64,000 nt of DNA from Mytilus galloprovincialis (lineage: Eukaryota; Mollusca; Bivalvia; Mytilida; Mytilidae). The position numbers were made by a program, and so were the translations under genes. Position 1 is the first letter of the stretch. The number at the start of each line of letters is the position of its first letter. The notes below the pieces were generated by a model. The model worked only from the letters and a program-made list of their open reading frames with translations. It ran no database searches and was not told the origin of the DNA. This document shows positions 5,279-49,990 of this stretch, one piece after another. The stretch covers positions 21,764,524 to 21,828,523 of the forward strand of contig NC_134845.1 in the NCBI RefSeq assembly GCF_965363235.1, written 5' to 3'.

Positions 5279-5667
5279 GTAAAGTACCACTTACTAACTG
5301 TTTTTTCTTTGTTGACATATTTGTTTGTTCTTATATTAATTAAGATTATGACACAAGATTGACCGCTATACTCACATTTTTGACATTTGTGTCTATTATG
5401 TCTTTTTTTTGTTCATACATTGTTGTCAATGCAATAGAATTTTATGCGACTGTCATTCAAATATGAGATTTGGCTAGCCATAAAATCAAATTAATCCATC
5501 ATTTTCTACAAAAGAAAATGCCTGTTCATAATCAAGAACAGTTGTTTTTTTCAATTCTTTTGGAGTGTTTGTTATACATAATGCACATGTTAAGGTTTTT
5601 CTTTAAGTTTAATGTTTAATAATAATAAATTAAAAAGTAGTTCATTTAGATACTTGTTTTTTTGTAG

Positions 5668-6944
5668 TATACTCAGTACCAATATTTGATCCTGGTGATG
5701 ACTACCTTGATGTGACCCTTGATTTAAGGCACATAGATAGTTCTGGGACGTTTGACGAAAATATCATTATTAACGTTCTGGTTTGCAATGAAGTAAAACT
5801 CTTACTTTTTGAAAAGATATCTCTTGGCTCTAGCGGCATCCATACAATGCAACTACCGATGAACCAGACATGGATTTTGAAAGGATCAGAAACATCGAAT
5901 AAATCATTACACATAATATTTTCGTCAGAATTTGATACATATAAATACGTTGCCACCAAGATATCATTTAATAACATGAGCATCCCAATTACTGCCCGTA
6001 TTTCTGAAACAACAAGAACGATATACAATAAGTATTCATATTATGTTACAACTGTTTGTGATATTCTAGGACTGTGTCAGATAGCAGTATCTTCAGCAAG
6101 CTTGTATGAGACTGAAATCAGCATTGATCTTAATATGACCTTTGGTGGATGTTCACTGCATTTTAACAACACAGTTTATACAACAGACGACGTGTTTATA
6201 GTTACCTTATCGAGATACACTGCACTACAGCTACAGACAGATTGCGACATGAGTGGTACTGTCATTCACAGTCCTGAAGAACTTACCGTTATAAGTGGAG
6301 GTCTGAATACAATAATGGGAGAAGGAAAAAAACAAACGTTCATGGGTATTAATGCTCCTCTGACAAAACTGGGTAAAGAGTATGTTGTAATAGGTAGCAA
6401 CTTTTCATTGTTCTGGGACTTTATCAAGATCATGACGACAGAATCAGAAACTACGGTCAGGATACTTGGAAAAGACATCAAATTTGAAAAAGCACGTGAC
6501 TCTATGAGAAAAAAACTCAGTCGAGGACACCAGTTACATATAAAAGCAGATAAAAAGATAGTTGTCACTCAATTTTCATGGGACAATAATACAGAACCTA
6601 TTTATTCTATCGTACCCCCTTTTAGGAAAACTTTAAGTCCACCATGTTTACAGTCTACTATTTATATTTACAAAGTAGTTGATGACTCAATGCCGACCGA
6701 TCCGCAACACAAACAGAAAATAGCCGTCACCAGGATCCCAGGTACAGATACTGTAATGTTTACTACGACTGACAACAATATCGAACTGCAATGTACCAGC
6801 ATTAGAAGCCAACTCTTAAACAAAGAAATAGTTATTTATAATTTAGAGAGCACACATTATGTTGACCTTGAGGTAGGTCCAAAAAAAGTAACATTTAAAC
6901 ATAATATGATGAAAGAAACGTTCAGAAAATACACTAATAGTTAA
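5668..6944 (+). CDS. Exon encoding an IgGFc-binding N-terminal-type domain (A), ending at the retrozyme array
   Basis: The acceptor TTTTTTTGTAG at 5667 enters in phase 1 and the frame runs 425 codons to TAA at 6942-6944, giving 463 residues with the signal exon. Mid-domain the protein reads LQLQTDCDMSGTVIHS, then TVISGG and GKEYVVIGS. That is the order seen in IgGFc-binding (FCGBP) N-terminal domains: an LQ..DLTGT-like strand, a vaVfsG segment, then a wGk.yvv strand. SIVPPF follows. The protein is probably extracellular, since it has many N-glycosylation sequons and paired cysteines. The family is linked to mucus and innate adhesion; a function in this animal is not shown. The last codons run directly into the 353-bp tandem repeat. 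Two endings are possible: the stop at 6944, or a phase 0 donor GAG|GTAGGT at 6872/6873 that would join in frame to the exon at 8685. Alignment by eye with domain B suggests the domain continues past 6872. Confidence 0.8.
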
Positions 6945-6977
6945 TAGTTATCAAAGGTACCAGGATTATAATTTAGT

Positions 6978-7021
6978 ACGCCAGACGCGCGTTTCGTCTA
7001 CATAAGACTCATCAGTGACGC
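6978..7021 (-). ncRNA. Type I hammerhead ribozyme, unit 1
   Basis: Reading the - strand from 7021 down: stem I 5' strand GCGUCA; core CUGAUGA; stem II GUCU/AGAC closing a five-base loop; core GAA; stem III ACGCGCGU (self-complementary, minimal loop); C17; then UGGCGU, which closes stem I against GCGUCA with two G-U pairs. Predicted cleavage is 3' of that C, between 6984 and 6983. All core bases are present. Such a short palindromic stem III is typical of metazoan type I hammerheads that work best as dimers, which fits the tandem arrangement. Confidence 0.9.
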
Positions 7022-7229
7022 TCATATCGAAATAGTTATAAACCAAACAAATACAAAGTTGAAGAGCATTGAGGATCCAAAATTCCAAAAAGTTGTGCCA
7101 AATACGGCTAAGGTAATCTATGCCTGGGATAAGAAATCCTTAGTTTTTCGAAAAATTAAAAGTTTTGTAAACAGGAAATTTATAAAAATGACCACATAAT
7201 TGATATTCATGTCAACACCGAAGTGCTGA

Positions 7230-7291
7230 CTACTGGGCTGGTGATACCCTCGGGGACGAAACGTCCACCAGCAGAGGCATCGACCCAGTGG
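7230..7291. other. Nested hairpin block of the retrozyme unit
   Basis: CTACTGGG (7230-7237) pairs with CCCAGTGG (7284-7291). Inside it GCTGGTG (7237-7243) pairs with CACCAGC (7266-7272), and inside that GGACG/CGTCC close an AAA loop. The block repeats unchanged at +353, +706 and +1059. It is probably a structured part of the circular RNA. Confidence 0.7.
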
Positions 7292-7330
7292 TGTAAATAG
7301 TTATCAAAGGTACCAGGATTATAATTTAGT

Positions 7331-7374
7331 ACGCCAGACGCGCGTTTCGTCTACATAAGACTCATCAGTGACGC
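7331..7374 (-). ncRNA. Type I hammerhead ribozyme, unit 2
   Basis: Same sequence as unit 1, 353 bp further on, with core CUGAUGA and GAA and all three stems intact. Confidence 0.9.
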
Positions 7375-7683
7375 TCATATCGAAATAGTTATAAACCAAA
7401 CAAATACAAAGTTGAAGAGCATTGAGGATCCAAAATTCCAAAAAGTTGTGCCAAATACGGCTAAGGTAATCTATGCCTGGGATAAGAAATCCTTAGTTTT
7501 TCGAAAAATTAAAAGTTTTGTAAACAGGAAATTTATAAAAATGACCACATAATTGATATTCATGTCAACACCGAAGTGCTGACTACTGGGCTGGTGATAC
7601 CCTCGGGGACGAAACGTCCACCAGCAGAGGCATCGACCCAGTGGTGTAAATAGTTATCAAAGGTACCAGGATTATAATTTAGT

Positions 7684-7727
7684 ACGCCAGACGCGCGTTT
7701 CGTCTACATAAGACTCATCAGTGACGC
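7684..7727 (-). ncRNA. Type I hammerhead ribozyme, unit 3
   Basis: Same sequence as unit 1, 706 bp further on, with an intact core and stems. Confidence 0.9.
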
Positions 7728-8036
7728 TCATATCGAAATAGTTATAAACCAAACAAATACAAAGTTGAAGAGCATTGAGGATCCAAAATTCCAAAAAGTT
7801 GTGCCAAATACGGCTAAGGTAATCTATGCCTGGGATAAGAAATCCTTAGTTTTTCGAAAAATTAAAAGTTTTGTAAACAGGAAATTTATAAAAATCACCA
7901 CATAATTGATATTCATGTCAACACCGAAGTGCTGACTACTGGGCTGGTGATACCCTCGGGGACGAAACGTCCACCAGCAGAGGCATCGACCCAGTGGTGT
8001 AAATAGTTATCAAAGGTACCAGGATTATAATTTAGT

Positions 8037-8080
8037 ACGCCAGACGCGCGTTTCGTCTACATAAGACTCATCAGTGACGC
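8037..8080 (-). ncRNA. Type I hammerhead ribozyme, unit 4
   Basis: Same sequence as unit 1, 1059 bp further on, with an intact core and stems. Confidence 0.9.
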
Positions 8081-8389
8081 TCATATCGAAATAGTTATAA
8101 ACCAAACAAATACAAAGTTGAAGAGCATTGAGGATCCAAAATTCCAAAAAGTTGTGCCAAATACGGCTAAGGTAATCTATGCCTGGGATAAGAAATCCTT
8201 AGTTTTTCGAAAAATTAAAAGTTTTGTAAACAGGAAATTTATAAAAATGACCACATAATTGATATTCATGTCAACACCGAAGTGCTGACTACTGGGCTGG
8301 TGATACCCTCGGGGACGAAACGTCCACCAGCAGAGGCATCGACCCAGTGGTGTAAATAGTTATCAAAGGTACCAGGATTATAATTTAGT

Positions 8390-8433
8390 ACGCCAGACGC
8401 GCGTTTCGTCTACATAAGACTCATCAGTGACGC
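8390..8433 (-). ncRNA. Type I hammerhead ribozyme, unit 5 (in the partial unit)
   Basis: Same sequence as unit 1, inside the incomplete last unit. On the - strand this is the first ribozyme transcribed, so it would define the 5' end of the first full monomer. Confidence 0.9.
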
Positions 8434-8684
8434 TCATATCGAAATAGTTATAAACCAAACAAATACAAAGTTGAAGAGCATTGAGGATCCAGTTACGTCT
8501 TAAATCATTAATATGAAGTCATAATGATAAATCGAAATTGAATCTTGTAGTTAAAATATCTATATTTTTGAAAATATTGAAAGGCTATATTCTATAATTT
8601 TATGAAATAAAATGAAAGTTTTGATTTACCAACACACATAAATCCTTCGAAGCGTTTGAAAGATTTTTTTAGTTTTTTTTTAAG

Positions 8685-13062: not shown

Positions 13063-13635
13063 TGGTCATGCCGTTGAAAATGTGAAATTATTTATAATCT
13101 AATATCTCGTTAGCTAGTCAATTTTTTAAACTTTGAGATTTACAATTAATTATTTATCTTGCTTACAGTCGTTTGAAATCAATACGTATTGAATGAAAAA
13201 AAAACCATACAGATAGAAATGATTGCCAAGGCGCATATCAACAACCTGATTAATTTAATCATATCTGATGGTGATCCATCAAAATTAAATTGAAACCCCT
13301 CCTGTGTGCCCGAAACATGTTTAACTGTGCCTTTTTGAGTTTTGCATGTACAAAGTCTGTAATTCAGTGACTGTCTTTTTTTTCCGTACAATAGTTTCGT
13401 CTAGCATGTCTAGTGCTTTATAAGTCAATCAGAGCGTATGTTTTCTCGTTTGAGGTGTTTAACATGTTGTCATCTCTTGGCCTTTTAAAGATTGAAATGT
13501 GGTGTCGGATTTGTTTATTGTTGAATGTAGTGTTGCAAATGTATTTGTCATTTAGTGTCTGGAAGAGATACTATAACTGTCTCATTGAAAATAATGCCAC
13601 ATCTTTTGTTTATATTTTTACTAAAATTCTTTTAG

Positions 13636-14888
13636 GAAACCGACTTGATAATGGTGGAAGAGAATTCCTCGTAGCGGTACATCCACTTGACCGTAATAAT
13701 ACAGTTAAACCTCAAGTATCCCTTGTTGCCATGGCAGACGATGGTTCAGAACTCAACAACATAAACATTGAAATACAAGTGATAACAAATGGAATGGTCG
13801 AGTCAATAATGTATATGAAAAAAGATGCAAATTATCAATATACAGGTGTAGAGAGTTTTGCAATTAATGAACCATATAATCAAGTCTTACGTGTCACATC
13901 ACCAATTGATATTAGTCTCCGTACAAAGGTATACAGTAAAATACATAATGATGTGTCCTCAGTTATGCTAAATTACCCAGTTAATGTGCTTGGTAATGAG
14001 TATGTTGTTGGGTTATTTTGGCATACCAACAGTTTGTCCACATGTTCAGTTGTCGCCATGCATAATAATACAACAGTTGAAGTCATGTTACCAGACCTTG
14101 AACAACCAATCACAGTAAGTGTTGTAGGCAACGAAAAAGCTGTGTATACTAACAATATGAAAATAAGTAAAATTTTACTTAGATATACTTCATTGGTATT
14201 TACCTCGACTGATGACTTAACTGGTACCATGATCAAAACAGATAAAGCCGTGGCTATATTCTGTGGCTACCACTCATTAATTGACAATATTGAAGAACCT
14301 TTCTCTACCATAGAACAGTTTCCTCCAATTAACACGTTTGGTTTTGATTTTAACATAAGAACCGATTTCATTTCATTAGACGACAGTGCAATTGATACTG
14401 ACGGCTTTGTTACATCATCCGTTAAGGTTATTGCCGTACAGCAGTGGACAGTAGTTACAATTATATCTACAAACAATACATCATTGACTGAATTTCTAAA
14501 CTATCCAGGAAATTTCACAGAAAAACAACTGACAGAGAATGTGCAAATTTCTACATCGAAAGAGGTTTTGGTTTTACTAGAATTTGCCAGTACAAAGGAC
14601 AAAAGTTTGATTGTGGTAACGCCAAAACAAAAAACTAAAAATAAATATTTTATTTCGCCATTTAAAAGTTCTGAATCAGATAATCCTTTCACAGCTAATG
14701 AAGTGTTTTTCAGTGGAAACAAAAGCACAAAGTTAAATTTCACTAATATGATAACTAATGTTGCGGAAAGTATGCCATATATTCTGGATTCATACAGTGT
14801 GTCGTTAGATGAACACGAGGCGGGATATATAATGCATTATAATGGACTGTTTGCCAGTGCGGCTGGTCTGTTCTTGGAACCAAACAAG
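13636..14888 (+). CDS. Exon encoding an IgGFc-binding N-terminal-type domain (B)
   Basis: The acceptor TTCTTTTAG ends at 13635 (phase 1 entry) and the donor AACAAG|GTAAGA follows 14888 (phase 0 exit), giving about 417 codons. Landmarks in order are GGREFLVAVHP, EYVVGLFWHTN, CSVVAMHNNTTVEV, YTSLVFTSTDDLTGTMIKTD, KAVAIFCGYHS, IEQFPPINTFGFDF and, near the end, GYIMHYNGLFASAAG. This is the classical order of the IgGFc-binding N-terminal domain: leading EFLVA, S.vva.nnTtvev, DLTGT.i.sdk.vAvf.G, eqfPP...fG. N-glycosylation sequons (NNTT, NTS, NKS) suit an extracellular protein. Domain B diverges more from the family's Gly/Cys pattern than mammalian FCGBP does, and no VWF-type domain follows. The open frame upstream of 13636 is treated as intron because it lacks a signal peptide and is interrupted by an ideal acceptor. 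Confidence 0.85.
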
Positions 14889-15997
14889 GTAAGAAGGGGT
14901 AAAAAAATAAAACTATGTCATTTTTCAAACTCTATACATCTCAACATCATCTAAACTAAAGTCACTGGATTTTCATTGTTGCTTTAAACGAGTGTTGTTT
15001 ATTATTTCGGGGAAACGTTTATGGATAACAGAGGATGCAAATCATGTTAAAACGATGATTTTTCGATTATTGCTACTGTTAATACTATAGAGGTAATTTA
15101 TGGATCATGGATACACTCACCCGCAGCATATGAGAGATTCTGATTGAGTTTCTGTAACAGCATAAGCGTACAATGAAATATAATAAGATGTAATATTTTG
15201 GCATATTTCGAAGGCAGTTGAGTTCAGTGATGACAATATAAACCGACCACACCAGAATGTTATTTTTTCTATATTTCGATTCGAGTCAAATGCACCCCTG
15301 ACTGTCCATGTTATTACAACCTTTCAAAATAAACCAAAACAAATATAAAAGTATTTTATTTTGAAAGGAATATTTCGTTGCCTAAACATACCATCAAAAT
15401 GTTAACCAATTTTATAGTTTCACAACTTTGGAACGATAAAAGGGATACTTAATAAAAATCTGTCTTTAGTGTTTTTTTTTAAACTACCTACAAATTTTGA
15501 TTAACAAACAAAGTGAAACAGACGACATTCGTAGTTAATCTGTCATTAGTTGTTCAAAGCATTAAGTTTATTTTTCAATGAATCTCAAAATTTGTTTTCA
15601 ATTTATTACATGGAAAGCAACAAATTGACGACGAACAGTTAGACAGACATGAACATACCTATATATCGCCGACTCTTTCTAGCGTTAATGACACCGAAAT
15701 TGAATGACAAAACAGACAAAAGAGCGATGAAAATACAATCAACAATCAAGTATAAACAACACAGGAAAGTACTACGAACGTGTCCCGAGTTACTATCAAT
15801 TTAATTACTACTTGTAACATTAATGGTAAATTTTCCTTTGATTTTCTGGTGAGTTAACTCAGTTATTTTTAGTAGAGTGCGTTAACTGAATGATTTTATA
15901 GTTATTTCACTCTCCAATCCCGCCGTAGAGAACCTCTCGTTTGAAAAGCAAAGAATGGGAGGAGCTTAAACCAGTGCATTAACTTCCATCTCAAAAG

Positions 15998-21625: not shown

Positions 21626-22087
21626 ATATCATGAAATTTATAATTGTTCTCTCAACTTTCACGAATGTCTCAACATGCAAGTAATAGAGTATTAATTTGG
21701 TGAATTTGGAAGAGCTCAATATTTTAAGATTAAAAGTAGACGATACAGATACTTCATATACTAAAATACTGACACCATATGCAAGTGAGTTACCTATATC
21801 ATTTGTCATTTGTTCTTTACCTTTTTTGATGATCTGTCCGTTTGACATGTTAATCTGAACCATTGACTTCATTTTTATGGTTTATTGGTCAATGTTATAT
21901 TTTCCAATTCTTAGATACCCGCTGTTTATTCTCGGATCATTTGTATTCACCTCGATCATTTTCATGTTTCCTTTGTCATGTTATCTAGAGGGTTGAAAAG
22001 AAAGAATATTTGTACGATTTTAATCTGATAACAGAAAATTAAAGTTTGCCATCTAAACGCCTTTATAGCCTTTATAGCCCATTTGTT

Positions 22088-22370
22088 CTGCTACTCGTCT
22101 ACCTAAAATTTATCAGTTTTTTTTCGGAAATACCACTGGTCTAACTAATATTTATCAGTTTTCGGATCTGTCACTAGTCTACCTCATATTTATCAGTTTC
22201 TCGGTTCTGCCACTTGTCTACCTTAGATTTATCAGTTCCACGGATCGACCACTGGTCTATCTTAGATTCGTCTGTTTCTCAGAGATGCCACTTGTCTACC
22301 TTGGATTCGTCGGTTTCTTGGAGATGCCACTGTCTACCTTAGATTTATCAGTTTCTCGGTTCTGCCACTT
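22088..22370 (+). repeat. Minisatellite of about 39-41 bp, left part
   Basis: About seven imperfect units of the form GCCACTTGTCTACCTTAGAT plus TTATCAGTTTCTCGGTTCT. The array continues on the other side of the LINE at 24694-24750. Confidence 0.8.
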
Positions 22371-24693
22371 AGTTTAAACATATTTTATTGTCCAAAAAAA
22401 CCAACATTGGACAATAGGATTGGACACAAGTTTTGCAACTTAGAACGTCTTCTCCATTACATACAAATAATATATATCCGAACAAATATGAAATACATCA
22501 TAATAACATCATAAACAATATTAATATGAAGACATGAAATTAAGAAGAATTTATACACATGGTTCATCGATTCCTAAAAGTCGAGTTGACCGTAAATTTT
22601 TATGAAAGACCTACCTAATAGGTTGTTTTAAACTTGGAATAAATATTCACTCAAAAGGTACTAAGTTTTTATTGTATTTTGAACAATTATAAAATTAAAG
22701 TGTTGTCAACTGATGGATAATAAAATCAAATTGATGATCCATGTCTTAGGAAAAAATGAACAATTTCATTCGAAGTCGACAAAAAGTAATAACATTGTTA
22801 TTGGTATATATTTAACCATAATGTTTATAAACTATGAAAAGCGATTGGTCTCTTTAATATAATTCTGCACTTTTATAAAAATTAGCGTGTTTATGTTCAT
22901 ATTAAAGAAAGCATTGCCGTACATTAAATTTTCAAAGTCGGTAGGTATATTTTCTTTTCTAAGTTCAAAAAATAATTTATTCCTTTGCACTGTATAATTT
23001 TTACACGAGAGGAAATAATGTTGAGCATTTTCATATAAATAACCACATTGGCACATTGCGTTAGGTTTAATATTTGCGTGATACAGATCCATGTTCAGGG
23101 CACTGCATTTGTTTCTTAATCTTGCGTGTAAAACATTTAAATATCTATCGCCAATATTGAAATATGTAGGGGGTGATTTGTTTTTAAAATATTTCTGTTT
23201 AATTTTTAATTTAAACATATTTAAAGAAAGTTCATTTCTAATACTTAAATCGAGCGAATTCCACAGTTTGATACTAGATGGAATAAATGATTCCTGATAA
23301 AGAGACAGTCTGCTAGAGGTTTGGTATATATTTTGACTGCTTCGTAGATTGTAGTTGTTCGTTTCTGCAACTGTAGGGGGTATTAAATCTAATAAGTATT
23401 CTGGGGCGTCCTCTTTCATAATTTTGTAAAATAAAGTTAATTTCTTCACTTCCCGTCTAATCTTTATTTTTTCCCGTTTCATCTCTAAATAAAGTGATTG
23501 AGTGCTAGCATAGCTTGTTAGACCAGTGACACTACGTGCTGCTTCCAGTTGTAATTTTTCTAATCTTTCAGAATTCAACTGACCACAATTATCCCAAACT
23601 TCAGAAGAATATTCTAGAACAGGCCTTATAAAAGTTAAATATATTCTTTCTAAATATTCCCTTTTTAGTCGGAATTTCAAACGTCTAAGAACATTTAATT
23701 GTTTTGATACCTTTTCTATTAAAGAATCAACATGCTTGGTCCACTTACAGTCACTGCTAAAAAATATGCCTAAATGTTTATTACTAGTAACCGTACCTAC
23801 CTTAACTCCGCCAAAATGAAAAATCAAGTTATTTTTTGAATTTTTGTTACTAAATAACATAATATTAGTTTTATTTGGATTGAATTTAACTAGCCAATCA
23901 TTTGCCAAGGAATTGATATTTTGAAGATCGATATTTATCATAGATTGGAGAGTAGTTTCATCTAGAGCAGTATGTCCAATAGATGTATCGTCTGCAAACA
24001 TTCTACTTAATCCAATCATATCATCTGCAATGTCATTAATGAATATTAAAAATAAAAGAGGACCCAGTACCGAACCCTGTGGAACACCAGCTTTACGATT
24101 ACCTAATTCTGAAGTTGCAACTTTTAATAATACCCTCTGAGTTCTATTTGTTAAGTAACTTTCGATCCATAATAACAGATTACCTTTTATACCATAGCTT
24201 TCTAACTTAAGAAGTAGACCCCTTATCCATACTCGATCGAATGCCTTGCTTACATCGGCAAAAGTTAAACTTGTATAGAATTTATTGTCTGAAGCATATA
24301 CGATAGAATGATACATCTCGATTAGTTGATGAAAAGTAGAGCAGCCGGGTGGAAACCAGACTGAAATTTCTACAAAAGTTTATTAGAAACTAAATGATTG
24401 AATATATGTCTATATATTATTTTTTCTAGTACCTTGCTTACGCAAGAAAGAAGTGATACTGGTCTATAATTACACGGCATTGACTTATCTCCATTTTTAA
24501 ATAAAGGAATAACATATGCCAATTTCCAATCTTTAGGAAATATATTTTGAGAGAGCGATTTGTTAAAAAGAATACATAAGGGAAGTGCAATTTCATTTTT
24601 TACTGCTATAAGCATTCTATTACTAATTTTGTCAGGACCAACAGCTTTATTTGGATCTAAAGTAGAAAAGAATCTTTAACGTCTTGTACTTGT
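22371..24693 (-). mobile_element. 5'-truncated non-LTR retrotransposon (LINE) inside the minisatellite
   Basis: The element interrupts the minisatellite between CACTT at 22366-22370 and CACTT at 24694-24698, a likely 5-bp target-site duplication. On the - strand it keeps the reverse-transcriptase palm and the C-terminal region but lacks the endonuclease and 5' part. Its 3' end (22371) has no poly-A tail. It lies in the intron between the two FAMeT exons, antisense to the host gene. Confidence 0.85.
22832..24690 (-). pseudogene. Reverse transcriptase of a Jockey-type LINE, broken
   Basis: Two - strand frames (24615 to 24370 and 24316 to 22832) together give the RT order. KDWKLAYVIPLFKNGD and NYRPVSLLSCVSKVLEKIIY come first, then FADVSKAFDRVWI, GVPQGSVLGPLLFLIFINDI and the catalytic box FADD within MFADDTSIG. 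KFNPNKT and a C-terminal CQCGYLYENAQHYFLSC (a Cys/His end typical of this group) follow. The reading frame is broken by an in-frame TAG just before KFQSGF and by a one-base frameshift a few codons later, so this copy cannot make a full protein. Nothing 5' of the RT fingers remains. Assignment to the Jockey/CR1-like superclade is by motif memory. A second, less likely reading is another LINE clade with the same palm motifs. Confidence 0.85.
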
Positions 24694-28060: not shown

Positions 28061-28321
28061 GATGCTCTCGATTGATAATCTTATTTAAAGCAAGATGAAG
28101 GTAGTATATCGTTTACGATATTTGACCTTTCGCAGATATCTATTGACTGTATTTTCTTAGACCTTGTGGGGGTTATTTTAAATGATTTAATTGTTCTCCA
28201 AAAAACGATGGGAGAAAATTCAAAACAATGTAAGCACTGTACAAGGTAATGTCTTTTTAATGACAATCTAAAAAACATCATATTAGAAAAAAAATATTCC
28301 TTTTGTTTATTGTTTATTTGA

Positions 28322-28366
28322 GCATTACTGATGAGTCAATTGTAGACGAAAAACACGTCCGGTGAA
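28322..28366 (+). repeat. Hammerhead relic
   Basis: CTGATGAG, GTC...GAC and CGAAAA occur in hammerhead order on the + strand. However, stem I (GCATTA against CGGTGA) and stem III no longer pair fully. It is cut off by the family C copy at 28367. Confidence 0.6.
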
Positions 28367-33480: not shown

Positions 33481-33496
33481 GTTGTCATCATCAAAG

Positions 33497-33720
33497 ATAC
33501 AAGACGCATTATTTTGTACGCCATACGTGTGTATCGTCAACAGCATACTCACCAGTAATGCTCAAATAAAACTCTAATAAAAGACCAAATAAGGTAAAAA
33601 ATTGAAGAGTATTAAGGATCCCAAATTCCAAAATGTTTTATCAAGTACTTTGAACTAATCTATGCCTGGGGCAGACAATTCTTCTTACTTCAAACAATTC
33701 AAAGTTCTGTGAACAGTTTT
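33497..33720 (-). repeat. Retrozyme relic with degenerate hammerhead
   Basis: TGTACGCCATACGTGTGTAT, AATTGAAGAGTATTAAGGAT and CTAATCTATGCCTGGGGCAG follow the array unit. The ribozyme core has changed (CUGGUGAG for CUGAUGAG, GAUAC for GAAAC), so it is probably inactive. Confidence 0.7.
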
Positions 33721-35628: not shown

Positions 35629-35930
35629 CAATAGTTATCAAAGGTACCAGGATTATAATTTGATACGCAAGACGAGCGTCTCCATGAGACTCATCAGTGA
35701 CGCTCAGATCAAAATAGTTATGAAGCTAAACAAGTACAAAGTTGAAGAGCATTGAGGACCAGAAATTCCAAAACAGGTGTGCCAAATACGTACGGCTAAG
35801 GTAATCTATTCATGGGATAAGACAATCCTTAGTTTTCATTCAAAGTGATGTAACAGGAAATTTTAAAAAATGACCATATAATTGATATACATATGATACA
35901 TGTCAACACCGAAGTGCTGACTACTGGGCT
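35629..35930 (-). repeat. Retrozyme relic, single unit, hammerhead broken
   Basis: It starts AATAGTTATCAAAGGTACCA and follows the array unit to GAAGTGCTGACTACTGGGCT. On the - strand CUGAUGAG and stem II remain, but the GAAAC block is deleted, so cleavage is not expected. Confidence 0.8.
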
Positions 35931-44300: not shown

Positions 44301-46379
44301 GCAAATTAGTAAAAGAACAATTATACCGCGTCAAGTATTATAGTTATGTCTAGATAAATAACTGGTCCATAGAAATATATTATCTATTCATATTTTCCTG
44401 AAGCGAGCGTTTCACCTTCTAATTTTCACAAGCATTAGCCTTTCAAAAAGGGCTAGTCGACTCTTAGCTGATGAAAATGGAAAGTGCTCTCGCTTTGTAG
44501 ATTAATTCATTTACTAGAATAGCCACGTGCACCAATCAACAAATTTTACCACACACGTGAGGTCACACGTAATGAAGTAGTATATATCATTTAACGTTGT
44601 TGTTTACGAAACTCCAGAAGATTCGACTAGTAGAGCATTTGCATTATTCACGTATCAGGATACGTGCACGGATCGACGTATACGTATCGAACAGATTTGT
44701 TTACAATAATGACTTAACCCCGATCTCAATTAAAATTAAATGCATTATAAAATATTTTCATCGGGACCAACTTGACTTAATTTACCCTTTCCTCATAAAC
44801 GTGTTATACGATACGCCGATACGGATACGCCAACAAATAATTGATTAATGCAAATGCTCTATTTATAGATAAAAGTTACCTGTGTTCCAATATCATGAAT
44901 ATATATGCATGATTAATGACCAGGCAAAATCTAATTGCTAAAATATAGAGGACAAATCCGATACTCTACTGGATTGAAGGACATTTACTAGGTTTGGATT
45001 GTCCTAACCAATCAATAAACTTTGATTAATCACGTCTCGTAATATCTTCCAATCAGGTAGCAAGAAAAATTCACACACTAATTGTCCATCGTTCAATTCT
45101 TAACATCGACTCCTAGGAGTCGATAATAATGTTGTTCTCAATATATTTATAACCATAACCATATACAGAGACGGAAACGACTAAATACTATGAAAGTCAT
45201 AAAAGGAAGAACATTTAGGTTTTCCCAAACAAATTGAAATGGGTCAAGGCATTTTTATTTTGGTTTGTATTGTTTTAATCAAAATTTATTGTTAAGAGGT
45301 TTAAGCAAACGTTTTGGTTATAGCTTTTAGATATAGGTAGATGTGGTTTGAGTGCTAATGAGACAATTCTGATCCAAATAGCAATTTATAAAAGGAAAAG
45401 TTTGTCTACATAGAAAAGAGGAATTAATGTATGAAAAAAATTAAGATATGGTAGCATTGCCAACGAGACAACTCTACACAAGAGACCAAAATGACACAGA
45501 AATTAACAACTATAGGTCACCGTACGGCGGCTTTCAACCAACAATGATTAAAGCCCATACCGCATATTCAGCTAAAAAAGGCCCCGAAATGGCATTTTAA
45601 AACAATTCAAACGAGAAAACTTACGGCCTTATCTATGTACAAAAAATGAAACAAAAACAAATATGTAACACATAAACAAACGACAACCGCTGAATTCCAA
45701 GACTGTTTGTTTAGTATATCAATGCTAACAAGGCTTAAAAGAATCAATATCAAGCTGTCTATTTAAAATAAGAAGATGGGACATGATTGCAAAGGAGTCA
45801 ACCCTCAGCAAGGGACCAAAATGACACTGCAATTAACAACTATAGGTTACCGTATGGCCTTCAACAATGAGCAAAGCCTATACCGCATAGTTAGCTTTAA
45901 AAGGCTCTGTAATCACAAATATAAAACAATCCATCGGCATAATTAATGTACACATTAAATGAACAATAAACAGACATATTACAAAGCAAGAAACGAAAAA
46001 CACAGAATTACAGACTCAATGACTGTTTGTTTAGTATGTCAATGCTAACAAGGCTTAAAAGAATCAATATCAACAAAAAATATATTTGATACAGACACGT
46101 CATATAATGTAAACAGTTAAAAAAGAACACGTATGTCCGATGTCCATAATCATGCTGATCTTTTTCTGCATGATATTTTTGCAAAAGAAATGGTGACTCA
46201 CATACAAATTTTGTTATGTTTCCAAATTTTTATAAATAAACCAATATTTACAACATAGTAAATAAGCTTGATAAGAAGTAGTATATCTAAATAATAACTA
46301 TGACATCGTACATGTATTTAAGATAACATGTATACTGTATAAACATTTATTCATTATTATTTAACATTTTGTTTTGTAG
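41327..46379. other. Long intron of the TNFR-like gene
   Basis: It contains MITE 2 (42200-42979), family A copies (43420-43560, 43800-43895, 45445-45720, 45770-46020), a common bivalve repeat starting GTGACGGATCCAG near 43610, and the start of the segmental duplication. No further exon is seen. Confidence 0.55.
42200..42979. mobile_element. MITE 2 with TTAA target sites (piggyBac-like)
   Basis: TTAA at 42196-42199 precedes GGATGTATTCTTCTGA. TCAGAGGTGTACATCC ends at 42979 and is followed by TTAA at 42980-42983. The terminal inverted repeat is perfect for 7 bp (GGATGTA) and imperfect for about 16. The 780 bp hold no coding frame. Confidence 0.75.
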
Positions 46380-46966
46380 AAACCGAACACATCAAAGGCC
46401 AAGCAGATACAATTACTACCGATGAAATCCAGTATGAGCTGCCAGTCCTTTTAAAGGGCGTGATAGGCGTTGCATGTTTCATAGTCCTTCTAGCGTTTTT
46501 GTCAATTATAATTATGTGTTGTGTACATCGTCATAAAATGAAGCTGATAAAAAAATCTCCTATGATCAATATGTCTAAACGGAGCAGTGTAATCAACACA
46601 GAAAACTGGATAAACCAGAACATTAATCTTGTTACATCATACAAAGCAAATAGTGTTCCTTTTTTTGGATCTTGTTCCGATTTTGAATATCGTGTTCGCT
46701 CTAATACTTTTTCCAATAACATATGTAACGAAAGCGATGGTTATGCACCACAGAAACACTCTCTTACTGATCATGGTTCTAATATTTCAAATACGTGGGA
46801 CAATATTAAAATTATAGACAAATATGATTCAAGCCTTGAATTATCCGATAAAACAAAGGGTTCGTCGTCTATTATTGATAACAATAACATTATATTGTCT
46901 TCAAGTAGTATTCACTCAAAAGATACAAATCAAATTATATTTAATGGATCATACTGTACTAGTTAA
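46380..46966 (+). CDS. TNF-receptor-like protein: last exon (membrane helix and cytoplasmic tail)
   Basis: The acceptor CATTTTGTTTTGTAG ends at 46379, is entered in phase 1, and the frame ends at TAA 46964-46966. ETEHIKGQADTITTDEIQYE is the stalk. GVIGVACFIVLLAFLSIIIM is the single membrane helix, followed by the stop-transfer CCVHRHKMKLIKKS. The tail of about 140 residues is Ser/Asn/Asp-rich (DKYDSSLELSDKTKGSSSII) and shows no death domain and no clear TRAF-binding consensus. The whole receptor is about 444 residues with the tentative signal exon, or 428 without it. Non-death-domain TNF receptors usually signal through TRAFs or act as decoys; which applies here is unknown. AATAAA at 46978 follows the stop by 11 bases. 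Confidence 0.85.
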
Positions 46967-47689: not shown

Positions 47690-49990
47690 GATTCCCTATA
47701 TACTAAGTATTCAACCAAATTTGTCCCAAAAAAACGATTGGGCACTGGCACCCTGACCAACCTCCCTATATCCGCCTCTGAAACAGGTTTTTTCTTATTG
47801 TTCAAGACCGTATTGTGACCTATAGTTGTTAATTTCTGTGTCATTTGGTCTCTTGTTGGGAGTTGTCTCATTGACAATCATATCACATCTTCCTATTTTT
47901 CTATATAAATGAGATATCAGGAATATGTTTAAGTAAGTTGAAACACGTTACATCGATATATATGATTGATACAAGGTAAGTATAAACATGTACAACATAT
48001 CCTGATATGTATATAGTGTGGTTAGATGGAATGTATTGAGATATCAGAAAGAAAAGATTTATAGTTGTAGTAACAACTATAAATACTCCTGTCTGCTGTG
48101 AGACAAACACCACCCTTCCAATCTAATACTGGCGCTCGTTGAGATTGATTTGGTGATCTTTGGTTTCTTGCAAATGTGATTTTTTTTTAATTCTATGGAC
48201 TTGGCTGTTTTTTTCATGAACTTTTATTCCACTCTATTTGTCTTTCAGTTTTTATAACGTTTGTATATTATTAAGCATATTGTGCATGTCAGTAAAAGAA
48301 TCATTCCGCGTCACGTGTTATAGGTATGGCTTAGATTACTGTCCATAGAAATATCATATTATCTATTCATATTTTCATGACGCGTGCGTTTCACCTTCTA
48401 ATATACATAATGCTGTTCTCAATTTATAACCATAACCATATAAAGAGACGGAAACGACTAAATACTATGAAAGTCATAAAAGGAAGAACATTTTGGTTTT
48501 TCCAGACAAATTTAAATGGGTCAAGGCATTTTTATTTTGGTTTGTATTGTTTTAATCAAAATTAAATATTAAGAAGAATAAGCAAACGTTTTGGTTATAG
48601 CTTTTAGATATAGGTAGATGTGGTTTGAGTGCTAATGAGACAATTCTCCATCCAAATAACAATTTATAAAAGTAAAAGTTTGTCTACATAGAAAAGAGGA
48701 ATTAATGTATGAAAAAAAATAAGATGTGGTATAATTGCCAACGAGACAACTCTACACAAGAGACCAAAATGACACCGATATTAACAATTATAGGTCACCG
48801 TACGGCGGCCTTCAACAATGATTAAAGCCCATACCGCATATTCAACTATAAAAGGCCCCGAAATAGCAATTCAAAACAATTCAAATCACAAATATAAAAC
48901 AATCCAACGGCATAATTAATGTACACAATAAATGAACAATTAACAAACGTGTTACAAAGCAACAAACGGCAAACACAGAATTTTAGTATGTCAATGCTAA
49001 CAAGTCTTAAAAGAATCAATATCAACAAAAAATATATTTGATACAGACACGTCATATAATGTAAACAGTTAAAAAAGAACACGTATGTCCGATGTCCATA
49101 ATCATGATGATCTTTTTCTGCATGATATTTTTGCAAAAGAAATGGTGAGTCACATACAAATTTTGTTATGTTTTTTTCAAATTTTTACAAATAAACCAAT
49201 ATTTACAACATAGTAAATAAGCTTGATAAGAAGTAGTATATCTAAAAAAATAACTATGACATCGTACATGTATTTAAGATAACATGTATACTGTATAAAC
49301 ATTTAGTCATTATTATTTAACATTTTGTTTTGTAGAAACCGAACACATCAAACGCCAAGCAGATACACTTACTACCGATGAAATCCAATATGAGATGCCA
49401 GTTCTTTAAAAGGGCGTGATAGGCGTTGCATGTTTCATAGTCCTTATAGCGTTTTTGTCAATTATAATTATGTGTTGTGTACATCGTCATAAAATGAAAC
49501 AGATCAAAAAATCTCCCATGATCAATATATCTAAACGGAACAGTGAAATTTACACAGAAAACTGGATAAACCAGAACAATAATCTTGTTACATCATACAA
49601 AGCAAATAGTGTTCCCTTTGTTTCATCTGGATCATGGCACAATTTAGACTATTGTTTTCGCTCTAATAGTTTTTCAAATAAGATATGTTCAGAAAGCGAT
49701 GATTTTGCACCACAGAAACATTATTTTACTGATCAAGGGTCTAGTGTTTCGAATACACCAGACATTGTTGAAAATAAAGACAAATATGATTCAAGCCTAG
49801 AATTATCCGATAAAACAAATGGTTCGTCGTCCTTTATTAGTAACAATGTCATTTTATTGTCTTCAGGTAAAATACACTCATAAGATACAAATCAAATTAT
49901 ATTTAAGGGATACTAGATAATCGTATCATTAAAATAAAAAAAATAAACAATTATACTAACATCGATTGAATCTTTTTATGTTATTTATTT
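47690..49990 (+). repeat. Segmental duplication, right copy
   Basis: Colinear with 43690-46990 and still highly similar outside the insertions and deletions, including intron, exon and 3' flank. The duplication is therefore genomic, not retroposed. Confidence 0.85.
49336..49883 (+). pseudogene. Duplicate last exon of the TNFR-like gene with a stop before the membrane helix
   Basis: The acceptor TTTTGTTTTGTAG and phase 1 entry are kept. The stalk reads ETEHIKRQADTLTTDEIQYE, then MPVL and TAA at 49407-49409, where the parent exon has TTA. Beyond the stop, the same frame stays open for 157 codons: helix GVIGVACFIVLIAFLSIIIM, CCVHRHKMKQIKKS and a diverged but frame-preserved tail, ending at 49881-49883. 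Two readings are possible. It may be a recently inactivated exon. Or it may be an alternative terminal exon that would make a secreted receptor of four cysteine-rich repeats. The splice site, the open frame and the 3' AATAAA are intact. A stop-codon readthrough form is possible but unsupported. Confidence 0.7.

Follow-up and report, generated by a model that had tools for sequence, protein, structure and literature searches.

The described systems closest to the element analysed here are the retrozyme of Mytilus galloprovincialis, for which abundant circular RNAs have been reported (PMC7229834), and the Penelope-like elements (PLEs). How animal retrozymes return to the genome was addressed in 2020 by a hypothesis without junction data, in which a primed circle is copied into tandem cDNA and a PLE is a strong candidate for the enzyme (PMC7229834). 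The suggestion of a PLE has been repeated in a review (PMC7761336). For the anole PLE Poseidon_Ac, reverse transcription has been reported to start internally in vitro, downstream of the ribozyme, at AT-rich targets without homology (PMC11167929).

The window, by which we mean the whole stretch of 64,000 nucleotides of M. galloprovincialis DNA that was analysed, contains a head-to-tail array of 4.4 copies of a 353-bp unit with 99% matches (Tandem Repeats Finder; Table 1). This confirms the exact 353-bp tandem period of the preliminary description, and the only correction is to the end of the array, which lies at 8491 rather than 8490. The element is oriented on the - strand, so that unit position 1 corresponds to window 7295 and position 353 to window 6943. 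The four full units are identical except for one base in unit 3 (window 7896), and they are followed by a partial fifth unit of 137 bp. A single private change in 1,549 bp suggests that the array is young, in agreement with the near-homogeneity already noted and the youth already suggested for it. Full units of the same 353-bp subtype are found at 99.7-100% in three other loci (L012, L013 and L014). The unit falls within the 150-450 bp of the tandem repeats of metazoan non-LTR retrozymes, and the GC content, 0.375 over window 6001-8000 (about half of it array), is below the 45-50% that bounds these elements. There is no open frame of at least 120 aa inside the array and, among frames of that length, neither the reverse transcriptase nor the GIY-YIG gene of an autonomous PLE, as befits a retrozyme, that is, a dispersed multi-copy element without a protein gene. 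The retrozyme identity proposed earlier is thus supported by the sequence, which has a type I hammerhead in each unit of a short tandem repeat. The array is best read as a young insertion belonging to the metazoan non-LTR retrozymes, of the mussel kind that was reported from Mytilus in 2020 (PMC7229834). It had also been described as antisense to an adjoining coding exon, and a + strand open frame with an IgGFc_binding domain does end at the array edge. A second IgGFc_binding (PF17517) open frame is present at window 13395-14954.

Table 1. Features of the retrozyme array and its surroundings (window positions).
Feature	Position	Strand	Remarks
IgGFc_binding-domain open frame (PF17517, E 1.3e-15)	5634..6944	+	TAA stop 6942-6944 shares two bases with the array
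Retrozyme array, 4.4 x 353 bp	6943..8491	-	Element 3' end = 6943, truncated 5' end = 8491
41-nt tail, ribozyme cut to fixed insertion 3' end	6943..6983	-	Putative reverse-transcription start near 6943
Type I hammerhead, unit 1	6978..7021	-	Cut expected between C 6984 and T 6983 (unit 312|313)
Structured domain, unit 1-89	7207..7295	-	Predicted branched hairpin and UUCG-loop hairpin; just 3' of the putative start on circular RNA
Type I hammerhead, unit 2	7331..7374	-	Rfam
Type I hammerhead, unit 3	7684..7727	-	Rfam
Type I hammerhead, unit 4	8037..8080	-	Rfam
Type I hammerhead, truncated fifth unit	8390..8433	-	Rfam

The five hammerheads on the - strand are complete, identical and of type I, each scoring 33.0 bits (E 8.8e-6) against the whole RF00163 Hammerhead_1 model in a 2.4-kb scan. 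The covariance model therefore upholds the five - strand hammerheads of the preliminary description, which had also named their stems correctly. An Rfam scan of the whole window at curated thresholds lists no hammerhead because 33.0 bits is one bit below the gathering score of 34. Our own hammerhead descriptor gave five matches in the window versus one in 200 first-order Markov copies of it. The core begins at unit position 281. In the minimum-energy cofold of two ribozyme copies (-31.5 kcal/mol) the pairs are exactly those of a double hammerhead formed via the palindromic stem III, which is consistent with the dimer activity that had been predicted from this stem. The ribozyme fold of a single copy (-6.7, versus a single-strand optimum of -10.0) is not optimal. 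From its sequence, the RNA of the window array can probably cut itself. Dependence of cleavage on a dimer is predicted by folding, and caution is called for because a single mussel repeat is reported to cleave, slowly, at about 0.1 per min (PMC7229834), and most invertebrate hammerheads of such elements, according to a review, to cleave as monomers (PMC7761336). Among the 119 units from the sampled loci that span it, the ribozyme core is kept in 110 and the 47-mer of the window in 73. A search of the literature for the ribozyme sequence found no match. We also considered, as a possible opposite-strand ribozyme, a hammerhead-like stretch on the + strand (CUGGUGA...CGAAAC, 7238-7262). We rejected it because it has one wrong core base, gives no + strand Rfam hammerhead match at E up to 10 and belongs to the - strand hairpin domain; the resemblance is probably a coincidence.

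The 41-nt tail that follows the ribozyme cut ends in CCTTTGATAACTATT. The structured domain at unit positions 1-89 folds at -40.4 kcal/mol (z -4.44), none of 200 shuffles being as stable, versus z -2.20 for the + strand. Variation per site is 0.0099 at unit 1-87 and 0.0132 at the ribozyme (275-320), compared with 0.0202 elsewhere, these rates being drawn from 128 units of 40 loci in which the units of one array are not independent. A covariation analysis of the hairpin domain, with 1 double change, 20 one-sided changes that kept the pair and 29 pair-breaking cells among 2,954, gave it no real support, so that the case for the domain is made by its energy and its low variation. We regard it as a candidate protein-binding element.

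Within the assembly, which comprises 1.385 Gb in 331 contigs, retrozyme matches are found on 14 contigs of 73-133 Mb. The ribozyme 41-mer, with up to 3 mismatches, occurs 32,787 times in the genome, while a reversed-pattern control gave 0. Contigs of viruses and prokaryotes, scanned for the exact pattern, and phages, searched with blastn, yielded no retrozyme match, as expected of an animal element. Among the longer arrays, one at C1:56127305-56133723 has at least 19 unit joints at a spacing of 354 bp. Two further arrays, C1:28984476-28988454 and C1:29329468-29333445, share a spacing of about 357 bp with the listed joints at nearly equal offsets, and are perhaps a duplication of one array.

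The window itself holds further copies and repeats. A single older retrozyme copy at 35630-35930, 83% identical to the unit, has its 3' end at unit 353; its ribozyme is broken, the bases after stem II being missing, and gives no hammerhead match. An old copy at 33490-33716 (72%) ends near unit 346, and among the matches listed for it 39 others are 74-76% identical, which may represent an older layer of the family. A ribozyme-like relic on the + strand at 28295-28362, CTGATGAGTC...GACGAAAAACACGTC, lies beside another repeat and likewise has no hammerhead match. A tandem repeat of 39 bp (7.3 copies, 76% matches) occupies 22087-22370, and two similar open frames with a hydrophobic segment, at 46343-46966 and 49410-49883, are perhaps a duplicated exon.

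The ends of the copies were read in a first sample of all 40 loci holding 128 matches, the best 40 of 1,859 candidates. Because these loci were best hits, short truncated insertions are missing from the sample, and all 40 insertions so chosen are about 350 nt or longer. The 3' end lies at unit 351-353 in 38 of the 40 arrays (28 at 353, 6 at 351 and 4 at 352), that is, in element orientation, 39-41 nt past the ribozyme cut; the exceptions end at 346 (one array) and at 137 (L044). In a second sample, of 20 picked arrays with junctions read by eye, the 3' end is at 350-353 in 19, and L094 ran on into another unit, its end being beyond the stretch read. The 5' ends of the 40 arrays, on the other hand, scatter from unit 1 to 319 in a distribution that is not distinguishable from uniform (KS P 0.30). 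Two of them are within 2 nt of the ribozyme cut, with 0.6 expected by chance, and four are at unit position 1 (P 0.002, for a 5-nt bin picked after the data were seen), as if the enzyme had stopped after whole turns. A first match listing had suggested that 5' ends cluster at unit position 304, but the cluster disappeared with full BLAST.

Genome-wide counts point in the same direction. There are 22,073 occurrences of the tail 25-mer (allowing 1 mismatch) versus 7,615 of the 47-mer that spans the joint between units (allowing 3 mismatches), and the corresponding counts at a control site inside the unit are 7,154 and 9,344. This indicates that termination of the repeat is far commoner at the tail than at the control site, in counts that mix end positions with the divergence of neighbouring stretches among subfamilies. 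The 3' end of the insertion has a constant position within the RNA, on the downstream side of the ribozyme, as would be expected of Penelope-like mobilisation. Our search of the literature, mostly at abstract level, found no published precedent for such a junction rule, and to us the fixed 3' end of retrozyme copies, a feature absent from the preliminary description, appears new. The 3' flank continues the circle sequence by at least 2 bases in 10 of the 40 arrays, versus a fraction of 0.107 in shifted controls, and by at least 1 base in 15 of the 40, versus 0.343, which suggests a possible brief pairing with the primer or a slightly variable start. Target-site duplications of retrozymes, when present, are reported to exceed 4 bp (PMC7229834), whereas in the 40 loci studied here flanks of the same locus are not clearly more alike than mismatched flanks. 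No second copy usable as an empty site was found for either flank, and no poly(A) or short-repeat tail was seen in the 40 junctions.

The variation within arrays bears on the number of templates from which an array was copied. Of 206 variants at sites covered by at least 3 units (20 arrays), 184 occur in a single unit and are thus private, as are 59 of 69 at sites covered by at least 4 units (8 arrays) and 5 of 5 at those covered by at least 10 (2 arrays); in the 18-copy array L015 all five variants are private. The 22 within-array variants that are common to more than one unit are all in six arrays (L026, L037, L038, L043, L044 and L050). Pooled figures give a median divergence of 0 within versus 0.034 between arrays, a median that overstates homogeneity because two long arrays contribute 208 of the 284 within-array pairs, and 303 private variants of 325, a proportion that overstates privacy because in an array of two units no variant can be other than private. 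Of 33 arrays, 23 have a mean divergence between their units that is lower than the between-array mean of 0.0377 and 10 have a higher one, which is what the accumulation of mutations in the separate units of old arrays would produce; homogeneity within arrays is clear only in young ones. Between loci 41 of 283 site-alleles recur, so that repeat mutation is likely and some gene conversion or mixed template alongside it is possible. The predominance of private variants (184 of 206) speaks for the copying of each array from a single template molecule, though less clearly so for the older arrays.

Scattered 5' ends combined with a fixed 3' end are the mark of target-primed reverse transcription. 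We propose, with a probability of roughly two in three, that the retrozyme arrays arise from target-primed reverse transcription that starts inside circular RNA, the enzyme being most likely that of a PLE. The arrays would be transcribed on the - strand, and the hammerheads, acting best as pairs joined by stem III, would cut the multimer into 353-nt RNAs, as published for a mussel repeat (PMC7229834). A host ligase would then close these RNAs into circles, a form already published for this family. Chromosomal DNA would next be nicked by a reverse transcriptase, most likely one from a PLE, which would begin to copy the circle from within, at a point about 41 nt past the ribozyme cut that immediately precedes the structured domain. 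The enzyme would circle the template one to many times, stopping almost anywhere, and each resulting array would have a fixed 3' end and a random 5' end, its units being identical when inserted. We give about even odds to a more specific version, in which each array is the record of a single rolling-circle target-primed event by a PLE enzyme, of 18 turns in the longest of the 40, and the structured domain is the docking signal.

From a start about 41 nt past the cut, a processed linear monomer would yield only about 41 nt, against the 350 nt or more of the 40 insertions chosen as best hits, so the template must be either a circle or an uncut multimer. A linear multimer from the parent array, uncut or partly cut and copied over several units from the same internal start, is in our opinion unlikely, but it deserves some weight. 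Mutation of the ribozyme of the anole PLE left insertion in vitro unchanged, and unprocessed RNA was taken to be the dominant substrate (PMC11167929); moreover, the units of young parent arrays differ so little that a linear transcript could pass for a circle. Partly cut RNA, however, should give 5' ends at the cut, and the two found there amount to a weak signal at best, contrary to what partly cut multimers would predict. An 18-unit array with only private variants would in turn need a very long uncut RNA, and circles are the main RNA form reported in the mussel (PMC7229834).

Mobilisation by a LINE instead of a PLE, through recognition of the 3' tail, appears improbable to us. The combination of 5' truncation and a fixed 3' end, which the retrozyme copies show, is also LINE-like, and the window contains a reverse transcriptase (22832-24379, PF00078) that we read as LINE-type. 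Yet the 40 junctions show no poly(A) or short-repeat tail and no target-site duplication signal, the insertions are tandem, and a start internal to the RNA is reported as a trait of PLEs (PMC11167929). Ordinary satellite DNA, expanded and homogenised by unequal crossing-over or gene conversion and with the ribozyme as a relic, would account for the head-to-tail tandem copies and for the variants in more than one unit (22 of 206, in six arrays), but is very improbable given dispersed insertions with one fixed end, the mostly private variants and the retention of the ribozyme core.

Potential PLE helpers for target-primed copying of a circle are present in the genome. At least 150 GIY-YIG matches are over the cut-off (the best 150 of 1001 candidates), with open frames of up to 911 aa, and a reverse transcriptase (E about 1.5e-6, roughly one bit below its own cut-off) precedes the GIY-YIG domain in both of the two long frames tested. 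A BLAST comparison of 30 PLE loci (L051-L080) with the retrozyme gave strong matches only to retrozyme copies inserted in L068, L070 and L075. As no sequence common to PLE and retrozyme was found beyond these copies in the 30 loci, the PLE is a putative helper; the circular template is likewise inferred. Near the GIY-YIG match of L074 there are two minimal PLE-like hammerhead motifs that fit our minimal descriptor, with almost no stem III, at 2505 (+) and 2071 (-), and related degenerate hammerhead stretches are found downstream of the GIY-YIG domain in L053 and L064. The scan for ribozyme-like cores also took in the loci L081-L085. In L074, L053 and L064 an AT repeat follows the hammerhead motif after some tens of nucleotides and may mark where the insertion ends.

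The fixed 3' end, the scattered 5' ends and the mostly private variants give the hypothesis of 2020 the form of a concrete model that can be tested, in which the start nucleotide is defined and a candidate for the signal is named, and the junction pattern connects the reintegration of retrozymes with the internal initiation demonstrated in vitro for a PLE. The near-uniform young array beside an open frame is a good construct for tests of ribozyme circles. Compared by description and not by sequence, the M. galloprovincialis retrozyme of PMC7229834 likewise has a type I hammerhead, tandem repeats of about 350-390 bp, thousands of copies and low GC; about 5000 hammerheads were reported there, by other methods, versus the 32,787 motifs counted here. 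The fixed 3' end was found here, and no mention of it was found for the Mytilus retrozyme in the portions of PMC7229834 consulted. The plant LTR retrozymes (PMC4918200, via PMC7229834) are likewise non-autonomous and produce RNA circles by means of ribozymes, but they differ in having type III hammerheads, LTRs and Gypsy-type helpers (PMC7229834, PMC7761336). The anole PLE Poseidon_Ac shares with the retrozyme the internal start downstream of the ribozyme and the tandem or partial-tandem copies (PMC11167929). Unlike Poseidon_Ac, the retrozyme described here is only 353 nt long and has no reverse transcriptase or endonuclease gene, and its stem III is longer than in minimal PLE-like ribozymes such as those of L074.
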